64,000 bases of DNA from Bacillota bacterium (GTDB lineage: Bacteria; Bacillota; Sulfobacillia; JACIYH01). Numbering within the stretch: position 1 is the first letter of the stretch; each line of letters opens with the position of its first letter. Made by a program: the position numbers and the translations under genes. The notes below the pieces were generated by a model, which saw only the letters and a program-made list of their open reading frames with translations, was not told the origin of the DNA and searched no databases. The stretch is taken from contig JASEFA010000008.1 of NCBI GenBank assembly GCA_030019365.1, forward strand, positions 1 to 64,000. The letters are read 5' to 3'. Shown here piece by piece: positions 19,078 through 39,194 of the stretch.

Positions 19078-19092
19078 CTCATCACCTCCCGG

Positions 19093-23019: not shown

Positions 23020-23087
23020 GATCTCCCTCCCCTCGCCGGTCGCTTCCGCCGCGCCGCCCTCCCGGGCCTGGGCCCGGCGGCCCGGCT

Positions 23088-23114
23088 GCCACCACGCCCG
23101 CGGGCCGTGGTGGC
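23088..23114 (-). other. Perfect 9-base inverted repeat between fliQ and fliR
   Basis: GCCACCACG (23088-23096) and CGTGGTGGC (23106-23114) are perfect complements around a 9-base loop that can itself pair partly. It lies in the roughly 100-base gap between fliQ and fliR, the only sizeable gap among the export genes. No U-tract follows. It could stabilise mRNA ends or attenuate transcription. Confidence 0.55.
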
Positions 23115-23120
23115 GTGACT

Positions 23121-23387: not shown

Positions 23388-23447
23388 GCGCACCACCCCG
23401 TCATCCGTCCGCGCCGCCCTGCCGCCGGCTGGCCTCCGGGCAGCGCA

Positions 23448-24554
23448 TCAGTGAAAGGAGGTCACCAGGGACCGCACCAGCAGGTCCCAGCCGTCCACCA
23501 GTACGAAGAGAAGGAGCTTGAAGGGCAGGGACACCATCATGGGGGGCAGCATCAGCATCCCCATGGACATCAAGGTGCTGGCCACCACCATGTCGATGAC
23601 CAGGAAGGGCACGAAGAGGATGAACCCCATCTGGAAGGCAGTCTTCAGCTCGCTGGTGGCAAAGGCGGGCACCAGCGTCCACAATGGTACGTCCTCGGGT
23701 CTTTCGGGCCGGGGCTGTCCTCCCAGCCGCAGGAAGAGCGACAGATCGGCCTGCCGGGTCTGGCGCAGCATGAAGTCCCGCAACGGCGCCTGGGCCCGGG
23801 TGAGGGCCTGGGTCTGATCGATCTCCCCCGCCAGATAGGGTTGCAGGGCATCCCGGTTCACGGTCTGCCAGACCGGGGCCATGATGAAGACGGTGAGGAA
23901 AAGGGCCAGGCCAATGAGCACCTGGTTCGGGGGCGTCTGCTGCAGGGCAAGGGCGCTGCGCAGGAAGGAGAGCACCACCACCACCCGGGTGAAGGAGGTC
24001 ACCATGATCAGGATGGCGGGGGCCAGCGAGAGCACGGTGAGCAGGAGCAGGATCTGCACGGTAAGGGTCAGGCCGCCCGGCCCGCCGCCGGGCTCGACCC
24101 CCACGGTGACCCGGGGGAAGGGCCAGCTGTCCTGATGCCCCGGCGCGGGAAGGGCCGGCTGGGCAAGGGCCACCCCCGGGCATCCCAGCACCGAACCCAG
24201 CACCACACCCCCTACGGCCAGCAGCACGAGTCCCAGCATCATACCCTGCCCCCGGTGAGAGACGAGCCGGCGCAGCATCTCGGCGAAGGGCCTGCCGGCC
24301 GGAGCGGGTGCCGTCTCTTCGCCGGCAGCGGTCTCCGCCAGGAGGGATACCCCGTCCCCCACGCCCAGCAGCATCCAGCGGTCCCCGAACCTCACCAGGC
24401 ACAGGTAGCGGTTGCCCCCCAGGGGCATGGTCTCCACCAGGCGCAGGTGGTTGCCCCGGGGGAGGTTCAGCCGCCCGAAGTAGCGGGCCGAAGCATACGC
24501 CAGTGCCATCACCAGCAGCGAAAAGACCACAAATTGCAGCAACGCCCACCCCAT
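23448..24554 (-). CDS. fliP: FliO-FliP fusion, flagellar export apparatus
   Basis: One 368-residue open frame that joins two normally separate proteins. Residues 1 to about 80 are FliO-like: a membrane helix, then LRLVETMPLGGNRYLCLVRFG and GVGDGVSLL. A short Ala/Pro linker follows. From Met105 the sequence is a full FliP, starting with a signal-peptide-like helix (MMLGLVLLAV), then the pore-forming helices with SFTRVVVVLSFLRSAL and MAPVWQTV. FliO normally helps FliP assemble. An internal ATG at 24242 with a G-rich stretch before it could also yield free FliP of 264 residues. No stop or frameshift separates them. ATG 24554 has AGAGGGG upstream. Confidence 0.9.
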   Translation of the reverse strand: MGWALLQFVVFSLLVMALAYASARYFGRLNLPRGNHLRLVETMPLGGNRYLCLVRFGDRWMLLGVGDGVSLLAETAAGEETAPAPAGRPFAEMLRRLVSHRGQGMMLGLVLLAVGGVVLGSVLGCPGVALAQPALPAPGHQDSWPFPRVTVGVEPGGGPGGLTLTVQILLLLTVLSLAPAILIMVTSFTRVVVVLSFLRSALALQQTPPNQVLIGLALFLTVFIMAPVWQTVNRDALQPYLAGEIDQTQALTRAQAPLRDFMLRQTRQADLSLFLRLGGQPRPERPEDVPLWTLVPAFATSELKTAFQMGFILFVPFLVIDMVVASTLMSMGMLMLPPMMVSLPFKLLLFVLVDGWDLLVRSLVTSFH

Positions 24555-24571
24555 CGGCCCCGCCCCTCTTT

Positions 24572-25030
24572 CTATCCACCCCGCTGGGCCCGCTCGGCCG
24601 GCACCGGGCCGACTGCACCGCCCACCGCCGCCCGGAACCTGCCCTCATCCAGCGGCTTCACCACGAAGTCGTCCGCACCCGCCTCCACCGCCGCCTGCAC
24701 CCACCGCGACTGCACCAGGGCCGAACACACCACCACCCGGCACCAGGGCACCTCGGCCTTGATGCGCCTGATCAGCTCCGTACCAGGCATGTCCGGCAGC
24801 GCCAGGTCGAGCACCACCAGGCCCGGCCGGTGGGTGAGCGCCATCTCCAGGCCCCGCCGGCCATCGCCCGCCGCACCCACCACCTGCCAGCCCGCCCGCG
24901 CCAGCTCGGAGACCAGCTCCTGGCGGAGGAAACGGGTCTGCTCCACCACCACAGCCAGGTTGTTGCCCGCCGCCGCGGCCAGGTTGTTGCCCCCCACCGC
25001 AGCCAGGTCGTTGCCCGCCGCGTAGCTCAC
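24572..25030 (-). CDS. CheY-like receiver protein with altered acidic pocket
   Basis: A single receiver domain of 152 residues, placed where clostridial fla operons have cheY. The phospho-acceptor Asp75 (LVVLDLALPDMPG), Ser103 and Lys125 (DFVVKPLD) are present. The usual acidic pair after the first strand reads Glu30-Gln31. The N-terminus holds three tandem copies of an eight-residue unit like GNNLAxxx, coded by a 24-base DNA repeat, the last copy being the first beta strand. GTG 25030 has GGGAGGG 7 bases upstream; ATG 25069 would add 13 residues. It may still bind FliM, but metal binding may be weakened. Confidence 0.8.
   Translation of the reverse strand: MSYAAGNDLAAVGGNNLAAAAGNNLAVVVEQTRFLRQELVSELARAGWQVVGAAGDGRRGLEMALTHRPGLVVLDLALPDMPGTELIRRIKAEVPWCRVVVCSALVQSRWVQAAVEAGADDFVVKPLDEGRFRAAVGGAVGPVPAERAQRGG
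24954..25025 (-). repeat. Three tandem 24-base repeats in the cheY-like gene
   Basis: Units at 24954-24977, 24978-25001 and 25002-25025 share GCCAGGTTGTTGCCCGCCG with a few changes (+ strand). They are in frame and code for GNDLAAVG, GNNLAAAA and GNNLAVVV, so the repeat duplicates the first strand of the receiver domain. Confidence 0.9.
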
Positions 25031-25099
25031 CCGCACGCCCTCCCACTCACCATCGGGTTCCTTCCCCATCCCACCCGGACCGCCCGCACCGCCACCCCA

Positions 25100-25462
25100 T
25101 CACTTGAGGGCCGACACCCGATCGGCGGTGGACACCACGTCCGTTACCCGGACCCCGAAGTTTTCGTCCACCACCACCACTTCGCCCCGCGCCACCAGCT
25201 TGCCGTTGACCAGGACGTCTACGGGCTCTCCCGCCAGCTTGTCCAGCTCAATGATGGAGCCCACCCCCAGGCTGAGGATGTCCCGCACCAGCCGCCGTGC
25301 CCGTCCCAGCTCCACGGTAACCTGCAGAGGGACGTCGAGCAGAAGGTCCAGGCTCACCCCTTCCCCGCGGCCGGAGGCAGGCGCCAGTTCCTCGAACTCT
25401 GCTTTCTCCACCGCCACCCGCTCGTCGGCCACCTTATCTTTCTGGCTCGAACCCTTACTCAT
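25100..25462 (-). CDS. fliN: Flagellar switch protein FliN
   Basis: A 120-residue C-ring protein. A charged start of about 35 residues is followed by the SpoA-type domain ([44 protein letters not shown]). Many Bacillota encode the longer FliY with a CheC phosphatase part here. This one lacks it, so CheY-P removal must rely on something else. It overlaps the fliM stop by 8 bases. Confidence 0.95.
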
Positions 25463-26444
25463 CGTCCTCCGCCTCCCTTGCTGCCAGCACCTTCACCACC
25501 TGCACCGCCGCCCGGTTTCCCACCCGGCCCGGCCGCACCCGGAAAGCCGGGCGGGTCCCCAGATACACGGTGAGCGGTTCACCCACCGGCTGGCCCAGCC
25601 TGACCACGTCTCCCCGCTCGAGGTTGAGCAGCTGGCCTATGGTGAGCGTGGCCTTCCCCAGTCGCACCGACATGTCCACCCGCACGTCCTGGAGGTTGGC
25701 CCCATTGGACGCTGGCGCCGCAATCTCCCCCCCTCCCGCCCAGCGGTGGGAAGTAAGCTGTCCCAGCACCGACTTCAGGGACGAGTACGGCAGGCACAGG
25801 CGCAGCGACCCCCCTGTTTCTCCCAGCATGGCGGTGAAGGTGATGACCGCCGCCACCTCGTTGGGCGGAATCACCTGGGCAAACAGGGGATTGGTTTCAA
25901 TGGAGTCCAGCCGTGGTTTCAGCGCCACCAGGCCCTGCCACGCCTCCGCCAGGGCCGAGAGCATGCCCCCAAAGACCCGCTCCATCACCGTCACCTCGAT
26001 GTCGGTGAGGGCCCGCTCCCCTGCCTCTCCCGCGCCCAGGCCCCCCAGCAGGCGATCGATGAGCGGGAAGGCCAGGGCGGGGTGGACGTCCACCATCTGT
26101 CGGCCCGGTAGGGGTTCCATGCTCACCAGGCACAGCACCGAGGGACTGCGCACAGAGGTGAGGAACTCGCCATAGGTGAGCTGCTCCACCGCATCCAGGG
26201 TCACCCGGGCCATGGTGCGCAAGTGGGCGGACAGAACGGTGGTCCACACGCGGGCGAAGTTCTCGTGCACCATCTGCAGGGTGCGCAGGTGATCCTTCGA
26301 GAACTTGTCCGGTCGACGGAAGTCGTACACCCGCACGGTCGGCCTGATGACGGGTCCTTCCCGCTGGGCCGGCTGGCCCCCCAGCTTCCCGGAGGCCAGG
26401 GCCTGCAACAGATCGTCCACCTCTTTCTGGGAGAGTACTTCCAC
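25455..26444 (-). CDS. fliM: Flagellar switch protein FliM
   Basis: A 329-residue C-ring protein. The N-terminal CheY-P binding peptide [10 protein letters not shown] is at residues 4-13. The CheC-like middle domain (around FKAxxx-type region to about 230) and the C-terminal SpoA domain from about 250 follow. GTG 26444 has GGGGGG upstream. The intact CheY-binding peptide shows the switch is meant to be controlled by a CheY even though the local CheY-like protein is odd. Confidence 0.96.
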
Positions 26445-26457
26445 CGTGCCCGCCCCC

Positions 26458-26901
26458 CTACTGAATCAGGAACTCGGTGAAGAAGATGCGCTGCACCTTC
26501 CCCGACTCCAGAATGCCGTTGATGCGGTCGGCCAGGTCCCGGGCCAGGCCCAGCATCCCGTCTTCACCTTCCAGCTCCCCGTACGTCTTGTCGCGCAGCA
26601 CGGATATGATGGTGTGCTCCAGCAGCACCTTCTTGCTCTCCAATTCCTTGCTCATGCGCCCGGTGGACAGCTCCAGGGTGATGTCCACGCTGATGTAGCG
26701 GCGCCCGCCGTTGTCCCGCAGGTTGGTGAGGTATTTCCCGGCATGGTAAAGCACCGCCTCTCCTGCCGTACTCGCCACCTGCCGGGGTGGGGACGCCACC
26801 AGGCGAGTCGCCACCAGATAGGAGACGCCCCCCATGGCTCCCAGGGCCACCACCCCCACCAGCACCCACATGACCAGCTTTCCCACGCGCGCCTTCCTCA
26901 C
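26458..26901 (-). CDS. fliL: Flagellar basal body protein FliL
   Basis: A 147-residue single-pass membrane protein near the stator. A short basic N-terminus (RKARVGK) and a helix (VMWVLVGVVALGAMGG) lead to a FliL domain with YLTNLRDNGGRRYISVDITL, ending FFTEFLIQ. GTG 26901 lies 10 bases after GGGAGG and just past the flbD stop. motA and motB, usually between flbD and fliL, are absent here. Confidence 0.9.
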   Translation of the reverse strand: MRKARVGKLVMWVLVGVVALGAMGGVSYLVATRLVASPPRQVASTAGEAVLYHAGKYLTNLRDNGGRRYISVDITLELSTGRMSKELESKKVLLEHTIISVLRDKTYGELEGEDGMLGLARDLADRINGILESGKVQRIFFTEFLIQ

Positions 26902-26908
26902 CGCCGCC

Positions 26909-27214
26909 TCACCTCCCTGCGCAGGGGCCGTCCGCCACCTGCTCCGCCTCCCCGGCCGGCGCCCGGGCACCCGCGACCGCCGCCCGGATGCGCGACCGCC
27001 TGCCCGCGACCGCCGGCCCGCTGCCCCACCACCTGCCCGCGACCCGGCGGCGGTAGGCCAGCACCCTCCTGGTTATCTCCGCGGGAGGTTCCCTCACCAG
27101 CACCTTGCGGCCGGTGGTGAGGGAGATGACGGTGTCGGGCGTCCCCTCCACCGTCTCTATGAGGTCCGCGTTGAGCACCATCTCCTGCCCGTTCAGCCTG
27201 GTCACCCGGATCAT
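26909..27214 (-). CDS. flbD: FlbD-family flagellar protein with extra tail
   Basis: A 101-residue protein. Residues 1 to about 62 match the short FlbD family (MIRVTRLNGQEMVLNADLIE, VISLTTGRKVLVRE), which always lies beside flgE. The remaining 40 residues are Arg/Ala/Gly-rich and coded by degenerate repeats of CCCGCGACCG, giving a low-complexity tail the family normally lacks. The function of FlbD is unclear. Confidence 0.85.
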   Translation of the reverse strand: MIRVTRLNGQEMVLNADLIETVEGTPDTVISLTTGRKVLVREPPAEITRRVLAYRRRVAGRWWGSGPAVAGRRSRIRAAVAGARAPAGEAEQVADGPCAGR

Positions 27215-27285
27215 CCCGTCACCCCCTCACCCGTTACCGCTGCCCGCCCCCGCACCGCCCTGGCCAACCGAGGCGCTGGGGTGCC

Positions 27286-28908
27286 TTACCGCTTGAGGTT
27301 CACCAGGTCCTGCAGCATCTCGTCCGCGGTGGTGATCACCCGCGAGTTGGCCTGGAACCCGCGCTCGGTGATGATCAGGTTGGTGAACTCCTGGGCCAGA
27401 TCCACGTTGGACATCTCCAGAGAACCCGGCGCGATGGTGCCGCGGCCGCCCGTCCCCGGATCGCCCACCTGGGGCTCACCGGAGTTGGCCGACTCCTGGA
27501 ACAGGGCCTCCCCCCGCTTCACCAGCCCCGCCGGGTTGGAGAAGCTGGCCAGGGCCACCTGCGCCAGCGGGCACGAAAGGGCGTTGGAGTACGACCCCAT
27601 CACCACCCCCTTGGTGTCCACCGTCACTGACATGAGCTCCCCAGGGCCGTAACCGTTCTGCTCCGAAGCCAGGGCGGTGTAGCCCGTGGCGTACTGGGTT
27701 AGCCCGTAGAAGTTCATGGTGACCGAGAGAGGAGCATACCCCGCCACCTGAAAGCCGAGCTGGTCCCCCGTGACCCGATCCACCTTCCCGGTGACATCGA
27801 ACACCACCTGACCCGACCCGGTACCGCTCGTAACCGGTATATTCTCACCGGCCGATCCCTTCACTGCCGCCGCCCAGTTCCAGACGTTGTCATCCACCTT
27901 GGTGAAGGTGGTGATCACGCTGTACGTCTCACCCTTGGCCCCTATGGCAGTGATGGAAGTCACCCTGCGGGCATCCGCATACGTGGCCGTGATCTCCTGG
28001 CTGGGAGCGTTGGTCCCGGATATGGTCCAGGACGTCTTGGCGCCCCCGGCAGGGAAGTTGATGTAGTCGAGGAGTGTAGGAGTGGCTGTGTCCGACACCG
28101 TGACGTCCGGTCTCCCATCGCCGCTCGAGTCCGGCAGGTTCGTACCGGCCAGATTGGTCACCCGATCCACTTGTCCGGCATCGTCGAACCAGATGTAGCC
28201 ATCGGCCTCGGAGAACTGGACACCGTCCCCGGCGAGGTGCCAGCGCCACTTGTTGAACTCACTGGTGGGACTGAGCTCGAAGGTGACTTTACGGGTGACG
28301 CTGGTGGTCCCATCGGACAGGGTGAGATTGAGGGAACTGCCGGACAGGGTGTAGGTGCCCATGTCGGAGGCGTCCAGGTTACGGGCGAACTTGATCTCGC
28401 CCGTGGTGCGGGCGGGGATGGACTGCACGTCGGACAGAGAGATGGGCTTGAGGTCCACGCCGGTGCGGCTGGCGGGGAGGGCGCCGTTCTGGGCCAGCCA
28501 GCCCAACACCTTCAGGCCCGAGGGGGTCACCAGGTTGTAGCTGTCGTCCCAGGAGAAGGCACCCGCCCGGGTGTAGAACCTCTGCTGGCCGTCGCTCACC
28601 ACGAATAAGCCGGCCCCGTCGATGGCCAGGTCGGTGGCCACTCCGGTGGACTCCAGGTTGCCCTGCTCGTGCAGGGTATCGATGGAGGCCAGGGACACGC
28701 CCAAGCCCACCTGCAGGGGATTGGTGCCTCCGCGGCCCTCCTGGGGAGCGGAGGCGGCGGAGAGCAGCTGGCTGAACATCTCCCGGAAGGTGGCCCGTCC
28801 CGCCTTGAACCCCACCGTGTTGACGTTGGCGATGTTGTTGCCGATCACATCCATGCGGATCTGGTGATTGCGCAGACCCGATACGCCTGCGAACAGGGAC
28901 CTCAACAT
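27286..28908 (-). CDS. flgE: Flagellar hook protein FlgE
   Basis: A 540-residue axial protein. The N-terminal rod-like motif LFAGVSGLRNHQIRMDVIGN, then NIANVNTVGFKAGRATF, and the C-terminal coiled coil (VDLAQEFTNLIITERGFQAN and the following VITTADEML) bracket a large variable middle domain rich in Thr, Ser and Asp that forms the outer surface of the hook. ATG 28908 is 9 bases after AAAGGAGG; ATG 28914 is too close. The codons are less G+C-rich in the middle part, as is usual for exposed hook domains. Confidence 0.96.
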   Translation of the reverse strand: MLRSLFAGVSGLRNHQIRMDVIGNNIANVNTVGFKAGRATFREMFSQLLSAASAPQEGRGGTNPLQVGLGVSLASIDTLHEQGNLESTGVATDLAIDGAGLFVVSDGQQRFYTRAGAFSWDDSYNLVTPSGLKVLGWLAQNGALPASRTGVDLKPISLSDVQSIPARTTGEIKFARNLDASDMGTYTLSGSSLNLTLSDGTTSVTRKVTFELSPTSEFNKWRWHLAGDGVQFSEADGYIWFDDAGQVDRVTNLAGTNLPDSSGDGRPDVTVSDTATPTLLDYINFPAGGAKTSWTISGTNAPSQEITATYADARRVTSITAIGAKGETYSVITTFTKVDDNVWNWAAAVKGSAGENIPVTSGTGSGQVVFDVTGKVDRVTGDQLGFQVAGYAPLSVTMNFYGLTQYATGYTALASEQNGYGPGELMSVTVDTKGVVMGSYSNALSCPLAQVALASFSNPAGLVKRGEALFQESANSGEPQVGDPGTGGRGTIAPGSLEMSNVDLAQEFTNLIITERGFQANSRVITTADEMLQDLVNLKR

Positions 28909-28910
28909 GG

Positions 28911-29369
28911 TCATGCCCTCCTTTCTCCGGCGGCCTCCCATGCGGGTCCAGCCCCGGAGAGATTATCCTCGCTGCTCACGAAGGCAGCGCTGTCGATGTT
29001 GGTGAAGACCTGCTCCCGCATGCGCGCGGCAGGAACCATGGTGATGAGAGTGCGGTTCCTCACGCTCACCAGGAAAGCAGCGTCCCTGTACATGACCAGG
29101 GACTCCCGGCTGCCGTGGGCGGCCAGCTTCTCCACCGCCCGGCCCACCGGCTCCAGGTCATGGGGGTCCATCCCGGCCGAACGCAGGCGCTGGCGGGCGT
29201 GCTGGGATATGCGCAACCCGGCCGCGGTCTCCGCCAGTACCCGGGCGAAGGAAGGCGACCCGGGCGCCGCGCCCGCATCCCCCGCCCCGCCGGCGCTACG
29301 GGTGGGTGCCGGCCGGGCGACCGGCGCTGTGCTCTGCTGTGGCGCCCCTTCCGTTCCGCGCACGTTCAC
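28911..29369 (-). CDS. TIGR02530-type flagellar operon protein
   Basis: A 152-residue protein found between flgD and flgE in Bacillota. After a Pro/Ala-rich start the core reads RISQHARQRLRSAGM, then LEPVGRAVEKLAAHGSRESL, FLVSVRNRTLITMVP and QVFTNIDSAAFV, which matches the family I know as TIGR02530. Its exact task in hook building is unknown. GTG 29369 overlaps the flgD stop. Confidence 0.88.
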   Translation of the reverse strand: MNVRGTEGAPQQSTAPVARPAPTRSAGGAGDAGAAPGSPSFARVLAETAAGLRISQHARQRLRSAGMDPHDLEPVGRAVEKLAAHGSRESLVMYRDAAFLVSVRNRTLITMVPAARMREQVFTNIDSAAFVSSEDNLSGAGPAWEAAGERRA

Positions 29370-29758
29370 GGGTTGGCCACCTCCGTCCCGGCCAGGGCTG
29401 CGGCCAGCCTGGCCAGGTGGTCCTCGATACGCCGCAGGGTTTCCAGGCTGGCCCGGATCTCCTGGAGGCTCTGACTGCCGGCCTCCAGGCGACCGAGGAT
29501 CTGCTGGCCCGCCGCGGCCAGGGCCTGCTCGGCCCCGCCCAGGGACGCCAGACTGGCCTCCATGCGGTGCAGGGAGTCCAGGGTGCTGAACTGGGCGAGC
29601 TGCGTCATGAAATCCCTGTCCTTCAACGGTTCCAGGGGGTTCTGGTGCTGCAGCTCCGCCACCAGCAGGCGCAGGAACTCCCGGCTACCAAGCTTCTCCG
29701 TGACCCCGGAGGAGATGCTCACCACCTCCCGGGGATCACCCACACCGCTTACCTGCAC
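29366..29758 (-). CDS. flgD: Flagellar hook capping protein FlgD (short form)
   Basis: A 130-residue FlgD with only the N-terminal region (FLRLLVAELQHQNPLEPLKD, then DFMTQLAQFSTLDSL) plus a helical tail. The Ig-like part of enterobacterial FlgD is missing, as is normal for Bacillota (B. subtilis FlgD is also about 140 residues). GTG 29758 follows AAAGGTGG. It caps the growing hook. Confidence 0.9.
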   Translation of the reverse strand: MQVSGVGDPREVVSISSGVTEKLGSREFLRLLVAELQHQNPLEPLKDRDFMTQLAQFSTLDSLHRMEASLASLGGAEQALAAAGQQILGRLEAGSQSLQEIRASLETLRRIEDHLARLAAALAGTEVANP

Positions 29759-29772
29759 AGTCCCACCACCTT

Positions 29773-31404
29773 TCACATGAGCACGTCGAGCGCGCCCCTC
29801 CCAACGGCCGTGGGCCGGACCACTCCGCCCGCTGCCCGGACCGAAACCGAGGGGGCACGCGACCCCCGCGCCACCGATCCCGCGCCTTCCACCCGGGAAG
29901 GCTCCCGTCGACCGGGAGAGAACCGGCGGCCCCGGTCGGTCCCTCCGCCCAGGGAAACCTCGAGCTGACCGGCCACCAGCCCCGCCTGTTCGAGCCGGGT
30001 CTGCAGCTCGGGCATGTTGCGCTGCAGCAGGTACGACGCGGTGCCCTCCTCCACCACGAACCGGGCGGCCACCGTGCCGTGACGCTCCGCCACCCGCACG
30101 GTCACCGGCCCCAGGTCCCCGGCATCCACCTGCACTTCCACTTCCGCCGGCCGCTGCCCGGGCCAATGGGCGTCCCGAACCGGTCCCGAGACGTTCCGTC
30201 CGTCAATCGCCGCCTCCCGTGCCGGCACAGCCCGGTCACCGTTCCGGTCGGGGGAGGGAGCCACATCCTGTCCCGTCCGGCTCGAGGTCACTGCCGCGGG
30301 ATCGAGGTCGCCCCGGCGCAGATGCTGTCCGGGTCCGTCTCCACCAGGGAACCCCAGCGTGCGGGACCCCTCCGTGCGGGACCCCTCCGCGCGGGACCCC
30401 TCCGCGCGGGACCCCTCCGCGCGGGACCGCTCCCCGCCGGGCTTCTCCCCACGCGCTACATCCCTCTGGTCTACCACGCTACCGCGCGTCGATTCCCCGC
30501 TCTCCTCCGGCCCGGCCGTCCGGTCCGGACCGGCCGGCGGCACCTCGCCCTTCCCCGGCCGGGGGGCACCCGCACCAGCCGCAACGGGTCCGTCGGGCCC
30601 GGGCGCGCCTACATGCACCGTCCGGGACGGCAGAGCGACCCCCGCTGCCTGCCCACCGCCAGGATGAGCAGGATCGGGCGGCGGAAGGGCAGCAGCCGCA
30701 GCAGGGTGACCGGAAGCCCGGGTAGTCCCAGCGGGAGCCTGCGGCGCAGCCGGGGCGGGAGCCTGCGCCGGAACCGCGTTGACCGGGGACGCCTCCTCAC
30801 CCACGACCTGCACTCCCGGCGCCGCCGGCGCGGGTCCCTCGCGGACGTCCATGCCGACCGCCGGGGAGCCGGGCTGCGGCGCCACGGGGGTAAAGACGGT
30901 GATGCGCACCGTGGCCGCGGGCATGTCCCCCCCCGCCGTCACTGCCGCAGGCCGGCTACCACCGGTGTCGCTCTGCCCTGCCAGCACGCCCCCGCCCGCA
31001 AGCGTGAGTTGCAGGCCCCCAGGCACGGACAGGCCCGCGTCCCCGGGCGGGGAGAGCGCCGGTTCGGCAGCGCCGAAGAGTTGGAGGTTTCCCGGTCCGG
31101 CAGGTGCCGGTGACGCGGCAGCGTGCGCCTGTGCGCTAGCCGGTGGCGGGCCGGCGTGAGCCTGCTGGGCAACCGGAGCCGGTGGGACGGGCATACCCAG
31201 GAGGGCGGCCAGGGCCAGGGTGAATTCCGCCCCCGGGGTGCTCGACCGCCCCGGCCGCATCGATGCGGGAGCACCGGCGGCATAAGGCGCATCGGGGGAT
31301 GAAGGAGCCGCCAGGGCCGGTCCCGCCGGGGCCCCGGGCCCCGGTGCAGCGGGAGGGGAACCCGGCAGCGCGGCCGCCAGCTGGGTCGTCAAGATCGAGT
31401 CCAA
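29773..31404 (-). CDS. fliK: Flagellar hook-length control protein FliK
   Basis: A 543-residue secreted ruler protein. The first 420 residues are Pro/Ala/Gly-rich and likely unfolded, fitting a molecular ruler. They include five Arg-Ala/Thr-Glu-Gly-Ser units near residue 325. The C-terminal hook domain (VEVQVDAGDLGPVTVRVAER, LLQRNMPELQTRLEQAGL) contacts FlhB to end hook export. The start is TTG 31404, backed by an exceptionally strong AAGGAGGTGA seven bases upstream. As its target FlhB has NPTT instead of NPTH, the switching pair is of interest. Confidence 0.9.
   Translation of the reverse strand: MDSILTTQLAAALPGSPPAAPGPGAPAGPALAAPSSPDAPYAAGAPASMRPGRSSTPGAEFTLALAALLGMPVPPAPVAQQAHAGPPPASAQAHAAASPAPAGPGNLQLFGAAEPALSPPGDAGLSVPGGLQLTLAGGGVLAGQSDTGGSRPAAVTAGGDMPAATVRITVFTPVAPQPGSPAVGMDVREGPAPAAPGVQVVGEEASPVNAVPAQAPAPAAPQAPAGTTRASGHPAAAAALPPPDPAHPGGGQAAGVALPSRTVHVGAPGPDGPVAAGAGAPRPGKGEVPPAGPDRTAGPEESGESTRGSVVDQRDVARGEKPGGERSRAEGSRAEGSRAEGSRTEGSRTLGFPGGDGPGQHLRRGDLDPAAVTSSRTGQDVAPSPDRNGDRAVPAREAAIDGRNVSGPVRDAHWPGQRPAEVEVQVDAGDLGPVTVRVAERHGTVAARFVVEEGTASYLLQRNMPELQTRLEQAGLVAGQLEVSLGGGTDRGRRFSPGRREPSRVEGAGSVARGSRAPSVSVRAAGGVVRPTAVGRGALDVLM
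30361..30435 (-). repeat. Five tandem 15-base repeats in fliK
   Basis: Unit GCGGGACCCCTCCGC (+ strand) is repeated five times with single-base changes. In frame it codes for Arg-Ala/Thr-Glu-Gly-Ser blocks in the ruler part of FliK. Copy-number change would alter ruler length by five residues per unit. Confidence 0.9.
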
Positions 31405-31408
31405 GGTA

Positions 31409-31867
31409 TCACCTCCTTTCTGCCGGTTTCCTTAGCTTACCGGTGAACTGGATGGCTACTTCGTCCACGTGCTTCTGCTCTTCCCAGTTCTCCCGGTACA
31501 GGTGAGCCGAACGCCTGCGCTCGCGCAGCTTCTCCACCACCCGCCGGGCCCGGGTCGCCACCACCAGATCCTCCCTGCGCCGCGATGCCTCCCGGGCCGC
31601 TTCCCGGGTGTGCTCGGCCCGCTCCCGCAGGCACCGGGCGGTGGCTTTCATCCCCGCTTCCAGCAGCAGCACCCGGGAGATGTCGCCTTCCGTCCTCGCC
31701 GCTGCCATGGCATCGAGGGCGTCCCGGTGTTCGCTGCGGGCGCGTTCCAGGGCACTCTCCGCCGTGCGCCAGGCCTTCAGGGCAAGGACAAACCGGCTGC
31801 GGCTCGACTTCTCCCTGGCCTCCCGCACGTGCAGCACTTTCTGAAAGCGGAAGCGGAAGGGGCTCAT
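31409..31867 (-). CDS. fliJ: Flagellar export chaperone FliJ
   Basis: A 152-residue, strongly charged coiled-coil protein that activates the export ATPase and shuttles chaperones. It starts PFRFRFQKVLHVREAREK, as FliJ does. ATG 31867 lies 7 bases after GAGGAG; the frame is open a few codons upstream. It follows fliI closely. Confidence 0.85.
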   Translation of the reverse strand: MSPFRFRFQKVLHVREAREKSSRSRFVLALKAWRTAESALERARSEHRDALDAMAAARTEGDISRVLLLEAGMKATARCLRERAEHTREAAREASRRREDLVVATRARRVVEKLRERRRSAHLYRENWEEQKHVDEVAIQFTGKLRKPAERR

Positions 31868-31878
31868 GGCGACACTCC

Positions 31879-33216
31879 TCACTCAGGTGCGTCCTTCAGC
31901 ATTTGCACCAGGCTGGCCCGGGCTTCCAGCGGACCGGCCTTCTCGCGGGTCCCCTGGCGCAGGAAGGCGCGCACCGCGGCGATGCGGCTGCGGGCGTAAT
32001 CGATGGCAGGGTTGGAGCCGGGCACATACGCCCCGATGTTGATCAGATCCTCAGCTTCTCTGTAAGTGGCCAGCACCGACTTGAGCCGGGAAACCGCCCG
32101 CTGGTGCTCCTCGTCCTGCAGGTCACCGGCCAGACGGCTCACGCTGGTCAGGACGTCCACCGCCGGGTAGTGACCCTGGGTGGCCAGGTCCCGCGAGAGC
32201 ACGATGTGCCCGTCCAGGATGCTGCGTACCTGGTCGGCCACCGGCTCGTTCATGTCGTCCCCTTCCACCAGGACGGTATAGATGCCGGTGATGCTCCCCC
32301 GCGCCGAGGTCCCCGACCGCTCCAGCAGGCGGGGCAGCAGGGCAAAGACGGAGGGGGTATATCCCCTGGTGGCGGGTGGCTCGCCGATGGCCAGCCCCAC
32401 CTCGCGCTGGGCGGTGGCAAAGCGGGTCACCGAATCCATGAGGAGGAGCACATCCTGCCCCTGGTCCCGGAAGTATTCGGCAATGGCGGTGGCCACGAAG
32501 GCGGCCCGAATGCGCACCAGGGCGGGCTGATCCGAGGTGGCCGCCACCACCACCGATCGGCGCAGGCCTTCCGGTCCCAGGTCCTTTTCCAGGAAGTCCT
32601 TCACCTCCCGGCCCCGCTCTCCCACCAGCCCGATCACACTGACCTGCGCCCGGGTGTTGCGGGCCAGCATGCCCATCAGCACGCTCTTCCCCACGCCGCT
32701 GCCGGCGAATATGCCCACGCGCTGTCCTTTGCCGCAGGTGAGCACGGCGTCGATGACCCGTACCCCCACCCAGAGGGGTTCGGTGATGCGGCGCCGCTCC
32801 AGGGGTGGGGGAGCACTGGCCATCACCGGATAGCTGGTTTCCCCGCGCAGGGGCCCCTTGCCGTCCATGGGCCGGCCCAGCCCGTCCAGCACCCGCCCCC
32901 GCAGGCCGGGTCCGACCTCCACCTCCAGGGGCATCCCCACCGCTTCGATCTCGCATCCCGGCCCGATGCCCCTCAGTTCGCCCAGGGGCATGAGCAAGGT
33001 GCGCCCCTGCCGGAAGCCCACCACCTCTGCCCGTACGGGAGGCTGGCTGCCCCCGGGGTAAAGCAGGCACACTTCACCCACCGGCACTCCCGGCCCGTGT
33101 CCTTCCACGGTGAGCCCCACCACCTGGGTGACCACCCCCACCCGGCGTACGGGGTCGGAGCGCCTGACCAGCTCTCGCAGTTCCTCCCACGGCAGGCTAG
33201 CCGGCATCCTGGCCAT
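31879..33216 (-). CDS. fliI: Flagellar export ATPase FliI
   Basis: A 445-residue F1-beta-like ATPase. Walker A is GSGVGKS, Walker B lies in VLLLMDSVTRFA, and GDDMNEPVAD, a FliI-type loop, is present. It unfolds cargo for the export gate. ATG 33216 is preferred, with GGGGGGTGA upstream, and overlaps fliH by 20 bases; ATG 33234 is possible. Confidence 0.97.
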   Translation of the reverse strand: MARMPASLPWEELRELVRRSDPVRRVGVVTQVVGLTVEGHGPGVPVGEVCLLYPGGSQPPVRAEVVGFRQGRTLLMPLGELRGIGPGCEIEAVGMPLEVEVGPGLRGRVLDGLGRPMDGKGPLRGETSYPVMASAPPPLERRRITEPLWVGVRVIDAVLTCGKGQRVGIFAGSGVGKSVLMGMLARNTRAQVSVIGLVGERGREVKDFLEKDLGPEGLRRSVVVAATSDQPALVRIRAAFVATAIAEYFRDQGQDVLLLMDSVTRFATAQREVGLAIGEPPATRGYTPSVFALLPRLLERSGTSARGSITGIYTVLVEGDDMNEPVADQVRSILDGHIVLSRDLATQGHYPAVDVLTSVSRLAGDLQDEEHQRAVSRLKSVLATYREAEDLINIGAYVPGSNPAIDYARSRIAAVRAFLRQGTREKAGPLEARASLVQMLKDAPE

Positions 33217-34123
33217 TGCCGTCACCCCCCGCATCGGGGTGCTCCCGACCGTCGCCTTCCCGTCCCTCTTCTTCCTCTCCCGGATCGGGCAGGCTCCCCG
33301 TCCAGTTCAACAACGCTTCCCCCAGCCGGCGCAGCTGGCGGTCCAGCCGGCCGTCCAGGTAGCCGTGCTCGGTCTCCACCATGACCCCGCCCCTGCCCAC
33401 CGCGGGGTCGGCCACCGCGTCCAGCGATGCGCCGCAGGCCCCGGCCAGCTCGGGCAGCCAGGGCTGCATGACAGCCACGTCATCGGGGTGGACATGTAGA
33501 GTGGCTTTCTCCCCGTGCTCGAACCGGCCCAGGAGGGCAGCCGCCTGTTCCCGCACCACCTCCGGGGAAAGGCTGACCTCCCGCTCGAGGATGCGGGCCG
33601 CCAGGTCCAGGGCCATGCGCACCGCATCCTGCTGGGCCTGGCGGAGTATGACCAGGCGTTCCCGGCGGGCGTCCTCGAGGAGGGCAAGAACACCGTGCAG
33701 CGTTTCCTCGGTCTCCCGGCGCGCCAGAGCCCGGCCCTCCTCCTGGCCCGCCGCAAACCCCGCCTCCCAGCCTTCCCTCTCCGCCCGCTCCCGCACCTCC
33801 CGCTCCAGGCGCCCGGCCTCGGCCCGTACCGCCTCCAGCATGGCCGCCACCTCCGCGGGCACCTCCCCGTCTCCTGACCCCGGGACAGCTATCGCAGCCC
33901 CGTTATCCGCAGAGGCAGGCACCCCCACGCGGGTCTCCAGCGTGGAGCCCTGGGCGTCCGGCCCCGACGTGACGTCGATCCGGGGCCCGGTGCCATCTCC
34001 CCAGGACTCCCCTGCTTCCTCTGCGGGCAGGGTTACCTCTGCAGGGGGCAGAGACACCACCTGCCGGGAACCGACCAGGGCGGCCACGTGCCTTTTGATG
34101 AGGGTGGTGCTGGCCCTAAACAA
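33197..34123 (-). CDS. fliH: Flagellar export stator-like protein FliH
   Basis: A 308-residue regulator that anchors and restrains FliI. A disordered N-terminal third leads to a long Arg/Glu-rich coiled coil (around REGWEAGFAAGQEEGRALAR) and a C-terminal domain like the V-ATPase E subunit (VHPDDVAVMQPWL, GGVMVETEHGYLDGRLDRQL). The start is TTG 34123, overlapping the fliG stop. The length is within the family range. Confidence 0.9.
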   Translation of the reverse strand: MFRASTTLIKRHVAALVGSRQVVSLPPAEVTLPAEEAGESWGDGTGPRIDVTSGPDAQGSTLETRVGVPASADNGAAIAVPGSGDGEVPAEVAAMLEAVRAEAGRLEREVRERAEREGWEAGFAAGQEEGRALARRETEETLHGVLALLEDARRERLVILRQAQQDAVRMALDLAARILEREVSLSPEVVREQAAALLGRFEHGEKATLHVHPDDVAVMQPWLPELAGACGASLDAVADPAVGRGGVMVETEHGYLDGRLDRQLRRLGEALLNWTGSLPDPGEEEEGREGDGREHPDAGGDGNGQDAG

Positions 34124-35123
34124 CGATCTCCTCGCCTCCTCCGCGGGCGATCACCACTTCGCCTTCCTCCTCGAGCCGGCGGATGACGTTGACGATTTTC
34201 TGCTGGGCCTCCTCCACCTCGCGCAGGCGCACGGGACCCAGGTAATCCATGTTCTCCTTCAGGTTCTCCACGGCGCGCTTGGAGAGGTTGCGGAAGATCT
34301 TGTGTTTGACCTCCTCGGAGGCCACCTTGAGAGCCATGGGCAGGTCGCGATTCAGGTCCACTTCCCGCAGGATGCGCTGCACGGACCTGTCATCCAGGGT
34401 GACGATGTCCTCGAACAGGAACATGCGCTTCTTGATTTCCTCTGCCAGCTGGGGGTCGTTGATTCCCAGGGTCTCCATGATGGACTTCTCCGTGGAACGG
34501 TCGACCCGGTTGAGCACCTCCACCACCGCCTCCAGCCCACCCGCGGCAGCGAAGTCCTGGGTGGTGAGAGAGCTGAGCTTGCGTTCCAGCACCCTCTCCA
34601 CCTCGCGGATGATCTCGGGGGAAGTGCGATCCATGAGGGCGATGCGCCGGGCCACGTCCGCCTGCAGCTCCGGAGGGAGGGCGGAGAGGATGGCCGCTGC
34701 CTGTTCTGCCTGCAGGTAGGCCAGCACCAGGGCGATGGTCTGGGGATGCTCGTTCTGAATGAAGTTGCGCAGCTGGCCCGGGTCTGTCTTGCGGGCGAAG
34801 TCGAAGGGGCGGACCTGCAGGGTGGCGGTGAGGCGGTGCAGGATGTCCAGCGCTTTCTGCGCCCCCAGGGCCTTCTCCAGCAGCTCCTTGGCGTACTCGA
34901 TACCGCCCCGGGCCATGTACTCCCGCGCGTAGGACATCTGCATGAATTCCTCGAACACCCGCGCCCGCGAATCGGGAGACACCTTGCGCACGTTGGCGAT
35001 CTCCAGGGTGAGCTGCTCTATCTCCTCCTCCCGCAGGTGCCGAAAGACCTGGGCCGATATCTCCGGTCCCAGGGAGATGAGCAGCACGGCTGCCTTTTGC
35101 CTGCCCCCGGGGGTCCTGAGCAT
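34116..35123 (-). CDS. fliG: Flagellar motor switch protein FliG
   Basis: A 335-residue rotor protein that meets the stator. It has the N-terminal FliF-binding domain (KAAVLLISLGPEISAQVFRH), the middle EHPQTIALVL motif that contacts FliM, and the C-terminal torque helix region with charged residues (DLPMALKVASEEVKHKIFRN). ATG 35123 has GGAGGAG upstream, 3 bases after fliF. Confidence 0.97.
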   Translation of the reverse strand: MLRTPGGRQKAAVLLISLGPEISAQVFRHLREEEIEQLTLEIANVRKVSPDSRARVFEEFMQMSYAREYMARGGIEYAKELLEKALGAQKALDILHRLTATLQVRPFDFARKTDPGQLRNFIQNEHPQTIALVLAYLQAEQAAAILSALPPELQADVARRIALMDRTSPEIIREVERVLERKLSSLTTQDFAAAGGLEAVVEVLNRVDRSTEKSIMETLGINDPQLAEEIKKRMFLFEDIVTLDDRSVQRILREVDLNRDLPMALKVASEEVKHKIFRNLSKRAVENLKENMDYLGPVRLREVEEAQQKIVNVIRRLEEEGEVVIARGGGEEIVV

Positions 35124-35126
35124 GGC

Positions 35127-36644
35127 TCACTCCTCCGCCATCCAGGCCCTGATGAGCTGGGCCACCGCATCCGGCGACTTGCGCGCCAGCTTCTCTACTT
35201 CCACCCGCAGGCGTGCCTCGTCGGCGAGCACCTCCGGTTCCTCAGACGGCACCTGAGCGGCGACCGCTTCGGCTGCCGGTGCCGGCGCGGGAGCGGATAC
35301 CGCTTCGGGCACGGCCGCCCGCCGGCGCCGGCGCCGTCCCCGCCACCACAGGACAAGCAGCAAGGCCAACCCACCCCCTCCGGCTGCCAGATAGCGCCAG
35401 TCGGGGATAGGGGAGGAAACCGGCGGGGTGGGGGGCTTCTCCCCCAGATCCACTCCCCGGGCGGCGAAGGGTATCCCCAGTACGGTGATCTGGTCCTGGC
35501 GGGCCGGGTCGGACCCGATAGCCGCCGCCACCAGGCGGCTGATGGCTTCCTGCTGGGCGGACTCCAGTTCCCTGTTCACCACCACCGCCACGGAGAGCCG
35601 TTTCACGCTCCCGGGCATCACCACTGTGTGCTCCCGTACCTGCCCCACTTCCAGGTTGCGGGTAACCTCCCGGCGCTGGTAGGAGGAGGGTCCGCCCTGG
35701 CCGCCCGCCTGGTACCCGGGGATGTTACCGTCGGTGGGCGGCAGGCTCCCGGCCGGACCGGAGAACGTCTCCTCCAGTTGCTGAATGCTCCGCACCACGC
35801 CATCGGGGGAGCCCGGTTCGAACAGTTGCCGCTCCACGGTACGGCTGTCGAAGTTCAGCTCCGCCGTCACCCGGGTCGCCACGTTGCCGATCCCCAGCAC
35901 CTGCTCCAGGAGGGACTGCAGCCGCCGCTCCAGGTCGGACTGGAACTGGTGCTGCACGTCGAGCAGGCGGCCCGCCGCACCCGAGGGTGTGTTCTCTTCC
36001 TCCAGGCGGGCAGACAGAACCCGCCCCAGCTGGTCCACCACGGAAACGCCATCCGGACGCAGCCCCTCCACGCTGTGGGTCACCAGGTGGACGATGCCGC
36101 CTACCTGTTCCCCGTTCAGTTCGGCGCCGGGACGCAGCTTGAGGAAGACGGCGGCGGTGACGGGGCGCTCCTGAGCCGCAAACAACTGGGGCTCCGGCAC
36201 CACCACGTGCACGCGGACCTGCTCCACCCCTTCCACCTGGGCGATGGTACGCGCCAGCTCTCCCTGCAGCGCCCGCAGGTATGCCAGCCGCCGGTCGGCT
36301 TCGGTGGCACCCAGGGGAGGCTTGTCCAGGATCTCGAACCCCACCGTGCCCTGTCGTGGCAGTCCCTGGGCGGCCAGATTCAGGCGGGCCTGGTATACCT
36401 GCTGGTCGGGGACCAGCACCGTGCGCCCATCGTCCTGGAGCCGGTAGGGGACCCCCTGCTCGGACAGCTTCTGGGTGATCCCGGCGGCATCGGAGATGTC
36501 CAGCCCGGTATAGAGAGGGACAAAACGGGGCTGGCTGAGAAACATCATCAAGGCGCCCCCCAGCACCGCCGCCACCACACCCAGGCCGAGCATCGTGCGG
36601 GCGCCGGGCAAGAGCCCCCGCCACCAACCCAAACCCCTGTTCAA
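35127..36644 (-). CDS. fliF: Flagellar MS-ring protein FliF
   Basis: A 505-residue ring protein with two membrane helices (about 20-40 and 418-435) around a large outer part with RBM domains (FVPLYTGLDISDAAGI, VRVHVVVPEPQLF). The C-terminal tail binds FliG. TTG 36644 is chosen: GGGAGGG lies 5 bases upstream and the protein then starts MNRGLGWWRG, like B. subtilis FliF. GTG 36665 is the alternative. Confidence 0.95.
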   Translation of the reverse strand: MNRGLGWWRGLLPGARTMLGLGVVAAVLGGALMMFLSQPRFVPLYTGLDISDAAGITQKLSEQGVPYRLQDDGRTVLVPDQQVYQARLNLAAQGLPRQGTVGFEILDKPPLGATEADRRLAYLRALQGELARTIAQVEGVEQVRVHVVVPEPQLFAAQERPVTAAVFLKLRPGAELNGEQVGGIVHLVTHSVEGLRPDGVSVVDQLGRVLSARLEEENTPSGAAGRLLDVQHQFQSDLERRLQSLLEQVLGIGNVATRVTAELNFDSRTVERQLFEPGSPDGVVRSIQQLEETFSGPAGSLPPTDGNIPGYQAGGQGGPSSYQRREVTRNLEVGQVREHTVVMPGSVKRLSVAVVVNRELESAQQEAISRLVAAAIGSDPARQDQITVLGIPFAARGVDLGEKPPTPPVSSPIPDWRYLAAGGGGLALLLVLWWRGRRRRRRAAVPEAVSAPAPAPAAEAVAAQVPSEEPEVLADEARLRVEVEKLARKSPDAVAQLIRAWMAEE

Positions 36645-36746
36645 GATGTCCCTCCCACCCGGCACGCGCCCCGCCCCCTTGCCCGGCTCGCCCCCGGTGT
36701 CACCCCGTGTGTGGGGTTCACACCGGCATCCCCGACTCCGCCTGCA

Positions 36747-37121
36747 TCACACCGGCATCCTCATGATCTCCTGGTAAGCCTCCACCGCCCGGTTGCGCAG
36801 CTGCACGGCCAGATCCAGGGCCAGCTGAGCCTTCTCGGTGGCGATCACCACCTCGTGCAGCTCTACCGGCTCGCCCTGGGCCAGCCGGGCGGTGAGCATG
36901 TCGGCCCGGTTCTCCAGGGAGGAGAGCTCGTCCAGGGCCCTACCCAGCAACCCGCCGAAGGACCCTGTGGCCGGGCCCCCTTCGGCGGGCCCCTGCCCCA
37001 CCGCCGGCGCCTCTGTCCCACCCCCACGCGCCACTTCCGCCCGCGACGCACCCGGGAAACTGACCCGGTCCACAACGAAAGGTCGCCCTCCCGCCGGCGA
37101 TATCCCGCCCACTCCGGTCAC
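36747..37121 (-). CDS. fliE: Flagellar hook-basal body protein FliE
   Basis: A 124-residue junction protein between MS ring and rod. The N-terminal half is Pro/Gly-rich. The C-terminal half has the FliE core (FGGLLGRALDELSSLENRAD, VELHEVVIATEKAQLALDLA, QLRNRAVEAYQEIMRMPV). GTG 37121 is 7 bases after GGAGG. Its last codons are copied in the spacer downstream: TCACACCGGCATCC (+ strand) occurs at 36747-36760 and again at 36718-36731. Confidence 0.93.
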   Translation of the reverse strand: MTGVGGISPAGGRPFVVDRVSFPGASRAEVARGGGTEAPAVGQGPAEGGPATGSFGGLLGRALDELSSLENRADMLTARLAQGEPVELHEVVIATEKAQLALDLAVQLRNRAVEAYQEIMRMPV

Positions 37122-37185
37122 AGTCACACCTCCTCACGGTCACCCGCGGGCCCCCGCGCCCCGGGACCGACGCGTCCCCAGGTGC

Positions 37186-37659
37186 TCACCGCCCCAGGTC
37201 CAGGGTGCGCTGAGCCATGGACTTGGCGGTTTCCAGGGCAGCCAGGCTGGCCTCGTATGCGCGGCTGGCGGCGATCAGCTCCACCATCTCCAGGGCCGGG
37301 TTGACGTTAGGAAGCTGCACGTAGCCCGACGCGTCCGCATCGGGGTGGCCGGGCCGGTACTCCCGGCGCAGGGGAGTGCCGTCTTCCTGTATGCCCAGCA
37401 CCCGCACTCCTTCTCCGCCCACCGCTCCCCCCGCCCGATCGGGCATGCCGGCGGCCACGGCCAGCGATCGTCCCCAGCTCTCTCCCCGGGGGGGAGCGGG
37501 GCTGCGCTCACCCAGCCGCACCAGCCGCCGGCGGTAGGGTCCGCCCTCGGCAGTGCGGGTGGATTCCGCGTTGGCCAGGTTCGCTGCCGACACCTCCATG
37601 CGGAGGCGCTGGGCCGTCAACGCAGAGGCACTCACGTCCATGGCCCGGAAGAGCTTCAT
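37186..37659 (-). CDS. flgC: Flagellar proximal rod protein FlgC
   Basis: A 157-residue rod protein. The N-terminal coil (LFRAMDVSASALTAQRLRME, ANLANAEST) and the C-terminal coil (NVNPALEMVELIAASRAYEA) are both typical. ATG 37659 has GGGAGGA upstream, directly after the flgB stop. The open frame runs on into flgB in another phase but has no homology there. Confidence 0.95.
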   Translation of the reverse strand: MKLFRAMDVSASALTAQRLRMEVSAANLANAESTRTAEGGPYRRRLVRLGERSPAPPRGESWGRSLAVAAGMPDRAGGAVGGEGVRVLGIQEDGTPLRREYRPGHPDADASGYVQLPNVNPALEMVELIAASRAYEASLAALETAKSMAQRTLDLGR

Positions 37660-37660
37660 G

Positions 37661-38056
37661 CTACTTCCTCCCTTCCGTGATCGCGGTGCGCCACATGGCG
37701 AACCTGGCCCCCAGCTGGCGAATGAGAGTCTGGTACCACAGGCCGTTTTCCGCCAGGGAGGCCAGCTCGAACTCGATGTCCACATTGTTGCCGTCGGGCC
37801 TGCCCGTGGTGGTTTCGCGGACCACGGGCGTGACGGCCGCCGGCCGGGGACCGGGAAGGTGAGCGGGATCGGTCCTCGCCAGAGCGAGCTTTTCTCCGGC
37901 CCGCCGCAATTCGGTGGCAAAAGGAACATCCTGGCGTTTGTAACCGGGGGTGTCCGCATTAGCCACGTTGTCCGCCAGCGCCTCGTTGCGGCGCACGGCA
38001 GCCTCCAGGGCTCTCTCCAGCCCCCGTACCTGCCAGGTTGAGAAGGGTTCACCCAT
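37661..38056 (-). CDS. flgB: Flagellar proximal rod protein FlgB
   Basis: A 131-residue rod protein, first gene of the fla operon. It shows ALEAAVRRNEALADNVANAD, then TPGYKRQDVPFA and NNVDIEFELASLAENGLWYQ. ATG 38056 is chosen over 38113 because the longer version would be coded by the terminator hairpin of the riboswitch, and because the family starts here. A G-rich ribosome site lies 4-13 bases upstream. Confidence 0.95.
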   Translation of the reverse strand: MGEPFSTWQVRGLERALEAAVRRNEALADNVANADTPGYKRQDVPFATELRRAGEKLALARTDPAHLPGPRPAAVTPVVRETTTGRPDGNNVDIEFELASLAENGLWYQTLIRQLGARFAMWRTAITEGRK

Positions 38057-38080: not shown

Positions 38081-38106
38081 AAAAATGCTTCCGCCGGTGC
38101 GGAAGC
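38081..38106 (-). terminator. Intrinsic terminator of the c-di-GMP riboswitch
   Basis: A perfect 8-base stem GCTTCCGC/GCGGAAGC (38099-38106 and 38087-38094) with a 4-base loop is followed by ATTTTT (38086-38081) on the minus strand. It lies between the aptamer and flgB, so it is a switchable terminator. Its upstream arm, extended to 38111, pairs at 11 of 13 positions with the 3' strand of aptamer helix P1 (38122-38134), giving an antiterminator. Confidence 0.88.
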
Positions 38107-38120
38107 AGCCCAAAGAATTC

Positions 38121-38225
38121 AGGGCTCCTTCGGCAGCCCGGCCGTCGTAGCTCCGCAGAGCTGTAGACCCGTGGGCTTTGCGTCCCCGCCTTTCGGCGGG
38201 TTTGCCTTTGTCGGGTTAGCCCCAT
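38121..38225 (-). promoter_or_regulatory. Cyclic di-GMP-I (GEMM-I) riboswitch
   Basis: Read on the minus strand. P1 is closed by GGGCU (38223-38219) and AGCCC (38126-38122). The conserved GGCAAACC is followed by hairpin P2 with a GAAA tetraloop (CCCGCC-GAAA-GGCGGG) and the hallmark GACGCAAAGCC. P3 has the stem AGCTC/GAGCT, then GGGCTGCC leads back to P1. This matches the c-di-GMP-I consensus, for example Vc2. Binding of c-di-GMP should stabilise P1, free the terminator arm and stop transcription before flgB. The same arrangement, a c-di-GMP-I off-switch before flgB, is known in Clostridioides difficile. Confidence 0.93.
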
Positions 38226-38351
38226 ATATATCTGTCTTGGTCGTCACTATTCTACATCGCTGCCCAAATTCCTCCTCTCCTGCCACCCTCAAACCAAAAT
38301 TTTCGTCGACCAGACGCGCTCGCTATAGGGGGCTCCCGCCATAGATGGCAA

Positions 38352-38402: not shown

Positions 38403-39194
38403 TTAGCCCCGCTGGGCCTTGATGCGATTCAACTCCTCCAGCAGGCGGTCGTTGAGAACCCTGATGTAGGTGCCCTTCATCCCCAGCGAGCGCGACTCGA
38501 TGACCCCGGCGCTCTCGAACTTGCGCAGCGCGTTCACGATCACCGACCGGGTGATGCCCACCCGATCCGCGATCTTGGAGGCCACCAGAAATCCTTCCCG
38601 GCCCTTGAGCTCGTCGAAGATGTGCCGGATGGCCTCCAGTTCGGAGAAGGAAAGGGTGCCAATGGCCACCTGCACCGCCGCCTTCTTGCGCGCTTCCTCC
38701 TCCAGGGCCTCGGACTTGGCCCGCAGCATCTCCATAGCCACCACGGTGGCCGCGTACTCGGCCAGGACCAGATCCTCGTCGGTGAACTCCTCCCCGTAGC
38801 GGGCCAGGAGCATGGTGCCCAGGCGTTCCCCGCCTCCATTGATGGGCACGATGGTGGTGACCTTCTCTTCGTAGATGCACCCTTTCTCCCGGTTGAACAC
38901 ACACCGGCGCTGACCCTGGCGGATGTTGGGAGAGGTCTCCTCGATCTTCAGGATCTTGTCGTTGTAGTCTTCCGGAAACCGGTCCCGGTCAAGGACCTCG
39001 TCCCTCAAGATCTCGCACTCGAACTCGTGCATGAGCCCGTGGCCCAGGATGCGTCCCTGCCGGTCCACCACGTACACGTTGCACGAGATGAGGTCCGACA
39101 GGGCTTCGGCCATATCCCGGAGGTCGACGGGCCGACCCGCTGCCTTCTGCAGCATGCGGTTGACCTCCCGGGTTTTGGCCAGCAAACTGCTCAT
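38403..39194 (-). CDS. codY: Global nutrient-responsive regulator CodY
   Basis: A 263-residue DNA-binding regulator that senses branched-chain amino acids and GTP. Residues 1 to about 155 form the GAF domain ([13 protein letters not shown], with [12 protein letters not shown]). The C-terminal winged helix contains [23 protein letters not shown] 39194 follows AAAGGGGAG. It ends the xerC-hslV-hslU-codY operon, the classic Bacillus order, and lies directly upstream of the flagellar operon. Confidence 0.97.

Follow-up and report, generated by a model that had tools for sequence, protein, structure and literature searches.

In Clostridioides difficile, the flgB operon of 29 genes, sigD among them, is controlled by a class I c-di-GMP riboswitch that acts as an OFF switch (PMC11477304 and PMC6366702, both in part). 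The anatomy by which such switches can be told from their ON counterparts is set out in sections of PMC9262584: in Cd1, the OFF case, the terminator is independent of the aptamer strand, and the antiterminator takes that strand and unfolds the ligand pocket; in pilM, the ON case, it is the terminator that recruits the aptamer strand, so that the two structures are mutually exclusive.

The flgB leader described here lies in a window of 64,000 nucleotides (the whole stretch of DNA analysed; contig JASEFA010000008.1 of a Bacillota bacterium, GTDB lineage Sulfobacillia; JACIYH01), and it is very probably a c-di-GMP class I riboswitch exerting transcriptional OFF control over a flgB flagellar operon (Table 1). 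With Cd1 (Cdi-1-3) it shares the class I aptamer, the position in the leader of an early flagellar operon, the presence of a flagellar sigma factor gene, a terminator compatible with the aptamer and an antiterminator drawn from the aptamer 3' strand over the pocket cytosine (PMC9262584, PMC11477304 and PMC6200980, each in part). It differs in belonging to another class of Bacillota, in being GC-rich, in its shorter expression platform and in having codY directly upstream, and its direction is a prediction.

Table 1. Coordinates of the flgB leader, its surroundings and its copy on contig C19 (window positions unless a locus is named)
Feature	Position	Strand	Basis or remark
Remaining flagellar operon, flgC to FliA/WhiG sigma factor (predicted extent)	16644..37660	-	Pfam/NCBIfam
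flgB, first gene of the predicted operon	37661..38056	-	TIGR01396, 96.8 bits
Intrinsic terminator	38081..38107	-	9-bp hairpin 38107-38086 and U tract 38085-38081
Switching strand, proposed antiterminator 3' half	38099..38111	-	overlaps upstream arm of terminator
P1 3' strand including C92, 5' half of proposed antiterminator	38122..38134	-	11/13 pairs with 38111-38099
c-di-GMP-I (GEMM-I) aptamer	38128..38215	-	G20=38206, A47=38179, C92=38133; cmscan RF03167 and RF01051
P1 outer helix, 5' strand GGGCU	38218..38222	-	pairs with 38126-38122; sequence and forced-structure fold
Upstream block GGAGGAATTT ... TAGAAT, also written GGAGGAATT-N11-GTAGAAT	38249..38275	-	present in each of the genus's three flgB leaders (alignment)
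codY, directly upstream in the same orientation	38403..39194	-	PF06018, 219.8 bits
Copy of the flgB leader before pilin-gspF-gspE	L011:3963-4226 (G000:C19)	-	81-83% identity to the flgB leaders of all three congeners

When the whole window was scanned against Rfam, a single match reached its gathering threshold: the minus-strand segment 38215-38128, under RF03167, the c-di-GMP-I-GGC variant (74.2 bits, E 9.6e-16; gathering threshold 59 bits). The same segment reaches 83.5 bits with RF01051 (c-di-GMP-I), aligned over model positions 1-87 of 87 and well above the gathering threshold of 35 bits. This covariance model search confirms the GEMM-I membership proposed in the initial annotation, and the remark made there that all hallmarks of the family are present was a fair call, save that the top label in Rfam is the variant family. 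The residue scan finds the canonical G, A and C at specificity positions 20, 47 and 92; the numbering of G20 and C92 is in part what we take it to be, C92 having been placed by alignment together with this presumed numbering. A47 is identified as the first A of GCAAAG because the contact list for the Vibrio aptamer names C46, A47, A48, A49 and G50 (PMC7288161, in part).

Could the RNA belong to the GGC variant and sense something other than c-di-GMP? RF03167 is preferred by cmscan in clan competition (E 1.1e-17 versus 6.5e-17 for RF01051), and the overall fold is shared, but the family consensus reads GCGAA where the window RNA reads GCAAA, with G in place of A47, and the bit score is higher for RF01051. 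The name GGC presumably stands for G20/G47/C92, and all five c-di-GMP-I family copies in the window genome have A at 47. As G20, A47 and C92 are kept and the G of RF03167 at 47 is absent, we file the RNA as an ordinary c-di-GMP-I aptamer and reject membership in the variant, which makes a different ligand on this account highly unlikely.

The expression platform of this ordinary aptamer is compact. The terminator (38107-38086 on the minus strand, nine pairs followed by TTTTT) begins 22 bases past the aptamer end and ends about 25 bases upstream of flgB; it is the strongest of six terminator-like matches in 37000-39000, where 1.2 are expected, so that its earlier description as perfect is fair. 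The antiterminator proposed in the same annotation is exact: 38134-38122 pairs with 38111-38099 at 11 of 13 positions, C92 included, with one C-C and one G-G mismatch. When the 41-base stretch is shuffled with its dinucleotides kept, 7 of 3,000 sequences pair as well. At low c-di-GMP, the aptamer 3' strand with its ligand-pairing C92 would engage the latter segment and sequester the upstream arm of the terminator, permitting read-through into flgB and about 25 further genes, a FliA-type sigma factor gene among them. When c-di-GMP is abundant, the 3' strand would stay within the liganded aptamer and P1, the terminator (38107-38081) would form and transcription would end.

In stepwise folding, the antiterminator appears when the upstream arm of the terminator has emerged. 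For the 142-base transcript, the free fold with the antiterminator has an energy of -56.6 kcal/mol versus -46.3 kcal/mol for the forced aptamer with P1, a gap that could plausibly be offset by ligand binding as tight as the affinities of such aptamers. At full length, both the free and the aptamer-forced folds contain the terminator, and switching must therefore be kinetic. We also computed an ensemble OFF signature, the gain in sequestration of the terminator arm when the aptamer strand is released (in kcal/mol, against shuffled controls); in the window leader this gain is 5.4 kcal/mol, a value reached by 5 of 150 shuffles.

What can be said about the direction of the switch? Near-identical GEMM-I aptamer folds act in either direction (PMC9262584 and PMC6366702, in part), and sections of the C. 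difficile work in PMC6366702 warn against extrapolating direction between species, so that an ON switch, in which ligand binding prevents termination as in Geobacter pilM or Bacillus Bc2, has to be weighed. The pilM terminator uses the aptamer strand, whereas the terminator in the window, with its 22-base gap, incorporates none of it and coexists with the forced aptamer; the competing strand in this leader is the antiterminator, which in silico covers the pocket cytosine. A pilM-like design is thereby rejected, and an ON switch of any kind appears unlikely. As the window leader has the published OFF anatomy of Cd1, OFF is the best-supported direction, and the Cd1-like switch suggested in the initial annotation finds support in silico, with both the folding and the OFF/ON distinction of PMC9262584 (in part) falling on the OFF side. 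The four GGDEF domain matches in the window genome also count in favour of a c-di-GMP OFF switch. The reading of the flgB leader as a Cd1-type flagellar OFF switch, a kind already known, is well supported.

The predicted target is large. From flgB to the end of a sigma factor gene at 16644, about 26 flagellar genes, the number given in the initial annotation, follow one another without a change of strand, and rpsB comes next. Pfam and NCBIfam matches order the run as flgB, flgC, fliE-K, flgD, a Flagellar_put protein, flgE, flbD, fliL, fliM and fliN, continuing with a receiver-domain protein, fliO, fliP, fliQ, fliR, flhB, flhA, flhF, a PilZ/YcgR protein and the FliA/WhiG sigma factor. Terminator-like matches inside the run (minus strand, 18300-38299) lie at 37100, 28629, 23925 and 22996, and none of them has as many pairs as the terminator at 38107. 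The PilZ/YcgR-like protein (17444-18340) belongs to the riboswitch-led run, and c-di-GMP may therefore act on RNA and motor alike.

Transcription might start at the upstream block listed in Table 1, which resembles a sigma-H promoter with the consensus as we assume it to be. No sigma-70 promoter was found in scans of 37000-39000 and of the minus strand over 18300-38299, and some class I copies of C. difficile are non-functional (PMC6200980, in part). Both points would suit a constitutive leader, in which aptamer and terminator are remnants and flgB is driven by a promoter further downstream. Such decay is hard to reconcile with conservation: the aptamer-to-terminator core is 91-92% identical among the flgB leaders of three congeners despite only 76-79% identity of FlgB between the window genome and the other two, and an aptamer match lies directly upstream of flgB in at least 30 of the 44 genomes of the class with FlgB above cut-off (by comparison of coordinates). 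We regard a non-functional leader as very improbable.

The survey covered 61 genomes, of which at least 58, the window genome included, contain RF01051 matches, and 44 have FlgB above cut-off. Three genomes were scored as lacking the flgB leader: G012, where the aptamer is degenerate by eye, and G024 and G055, where the upstream match is about 2.5 kb away from flgB. The leader table holds 24 of the at least 30 flgB leaders, those of G006, G013, G019, G041, G044 and G059 being outside it. A terminator-like hairpin is present in all 24; for G028 the automatic choice looks wrong, with a nearer U-tailed hairpin visible, and this leader was kept in the counts. G20, A47 and C92 are retained in 23 of the 24, the exception being G021 with A at 20.

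The OFF signature averages 4.5 kcal/mol over the 24 leaders versus 2.4 kcal/mol in shuffles (Wilcoxon p 0.006). It exceeds 3 kcal/mol in 16 leaders and falls below that value in eight; in nine of the 24, no more than 10% of the shuffles made from the leader itself score as high. One of the two congeners, G002, fails to show it (0.9 kcal/mol, with 65 of 150 shuffles as good). Own and foreign antiterminator strands do not differ among the flgB leaders (-12.4 versus -12.5 kcal/mol), and pairing of the aptamer 3' strand with the terminator arm alone exceeds neither shuffled arms (p 0.18) nor the reversed strand (p 0.43), in a test that omits the GGGC before the arm used by the antiterminator of the window and skips leaders whose terminator lies less than 7 bases from the aptamer end. 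In a second set, 18 leaders ahead of flgF/G-type rod genes, the signature is weaker (p 0.07). One leader of this kind in the window genome, L012:3401-3486 (G000:C3:107900-107985), precedes an flgF/flgG-type gene pair, and its conservation extends to the two congeners and to several further families of the class.

We also compared 80 CodY loci of named genomes, among which the window organism was not seen; the nearest named CodY relatives include two bins, one from Bacillota and one of a Symbiobacterium sp., and Firmicutes UBA3570. Eight of these loci have a c-di-GMP-I family match, with flgB just downstream in all eight, Carboxydocella thermautotrophica among them; flgB occurs anywhere in the stretch in 20 of the 80. 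The Cd1 arrangement is widespread in a distant and largely uncultured class of Bacillota, and whole-operon control of flagella by a riboswitch is therefore no speciality of C. difficile.

A few leaders of the class depart from the common pattern. Two flagellar GEMM-I leaders, L047 (G021, ahead of flgB) and L156 (G018, flgB-like), carry at position 20 the A that is characteristic of 3',3'-cGAMP riboswitches, and for these two the substitution makes a change of ligand at the flagellar operon possible; L043 (G059) has A at this position too. The cGAMP riboswitches, which have the same fold and were originally annotated as c-di-GMP switches (PMC9262584, in part), raise the question of whether the window RNA, too, prefers 3',3'-cGAMP as a GEMM-Ib member. 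Its G at position 20, shared with the flgB leaders of the table other than that of G021, leads us to reject this preference, which is barely credible for the c-di-GMP switch of the window. Tandem c-di-GMP-I aptamers stand upstream of flgB in L062 (G003), each with its own U-tailed hairpin, and, judged by coordinates, at G019:C69:52907-53158. In the c-di-GMP-I family hits L028, L097 and L101 (G034, G009 and G034), a pattern scan gives C or G in place of A at position 47, and their genus has no FlgB match.

The flgB switch is of a kind already known from C. difficile; what is new here is its pilus twin, which lies outside the window and is absent from the initial annotation. The top-scoring c-di-GMP-I copy of the window genome, on contig C19 (4060-4146, minus strand), is followed by a pilin gene (N_methyl, T2SSG), gspF and gspE, the last encoding a protein with an MshEN domain that also scores 63.9 bits with the NCBIfam MshE-related c-di-GMP-binding model (cut-off 38). 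Its similarity to the flgB leaders begins upstream of the aptamer, with shared AAAA...TTGG, GGAG and TAGAAT blocks (part of the block at 38249-38275 is present, with a shorter spacer), spans the terminator, the ribosome site, the start codon and about nine flgB codons, and then ends; with this remnant of the first flgB codons begins a short ORF in the leader, about 62 codons long. Over the 143 columns of the aptamer-to-terminator core, the pil copy shares 91-93% identity with the three flgB leaders, a divergence no greater than that among the orthologous leaders, and it seems to date from around the species split. With 13 of the 143 columns differing from the window leader, an assembly repeat of that leader is an unlikely explanation for the copy. 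Contig C19 is assigned to the genus through its sulfite-reductase gene, which has 95% and 91% identity to its counterparts in the congeners. The pilin operon was found in one of the three genomes of the order.

A single changed antiterminator position in the pil copy converts the G-G mismatch into a G-U pair, and its OFF signature, 8.9 kcal/mol with 0 of 150 shuffles as high, surpasses the one in the window leader. In another family, G026, G045 and G057 carry class I leaders before prepilins, with OFF anatomy and signatures of 8.6-11.6 kcal/mol, which no more than 1 of 40 shuffles reaches; they look independent, since neither the terminators nor the 3' ends of the aptamers are like those of the flgB leaders in the same genomes. 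We give roughly even chances to the reading in which the whole flgB control module (upstream DNA, aptamer, terminator, ribosome site and first codons) was duplicated in the genus and now drives pilin-gspF-gspE, one kind of OFF-type switch turning off both flagella and a pilus/type II-secretion-like system, with this same-sign wiring having perhaps arisen more than once. Should the duplication reading be true, transcription and assembly would share one signal, as GspE carries the MshE-type c-di-GMP-binding domain.

Switches at pilus genes have precedents of other designs. The pilM GEMM-I of Geobacter metallireducens resembles the C19 twin in its aptamer fold and in acting on pilus genes through transcription termination, but it has cGAMP as ligand, the ON direction and a terminator that uses the aptamer strand (PMC9262584, in part). 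Cdi-2-4, at the type IV pilus operon pilA1 of C. difficile, is likewise a c-di-GMP riboswitch at a pilus operon but has an unrelated class II aptamer and acts as an ON switch, whereas the C19 copy has a class I aptamer and OFF anatomy (PMC6366702 and PMC6200980, in part); here a leader related to that of flgB precedes pilin genes, which in C. difficile stand under a class II ON switch. By title and abstract, the open-access literature yielded no matching case of class I switches at pilin operons or of duplicated riboswitch modules. The C19 copy would be a visible recruitment of a riboswitch to a new operon through duplication of a complete promoter-riboswitch-terminator module. The joint shut-off of flagella and pilus system by c-di-GMP, predicted from the anatomy of the two leaders, would be the reverse of the flagella-off, pili-on arrangement of C. 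difficile and of the ON switch of Geobacter pilM, and it would contradict the usual motile-to-piliated picture.

Two further c-di-GMP-I leaders of the window genome, L013 (G000:C1:35885-35969) and L014 (G000:C14:17371-17455), lead into genes for secreted proteins that carry TPR and copper-amine-oxidase-N (Cu_amine_oxidN1) domains. Adjoining the riboswitch locus on C14, L014:5531-7039 encodes a protein with DUF2399/JetD C-terminal (Wadjet-type defence) matches.
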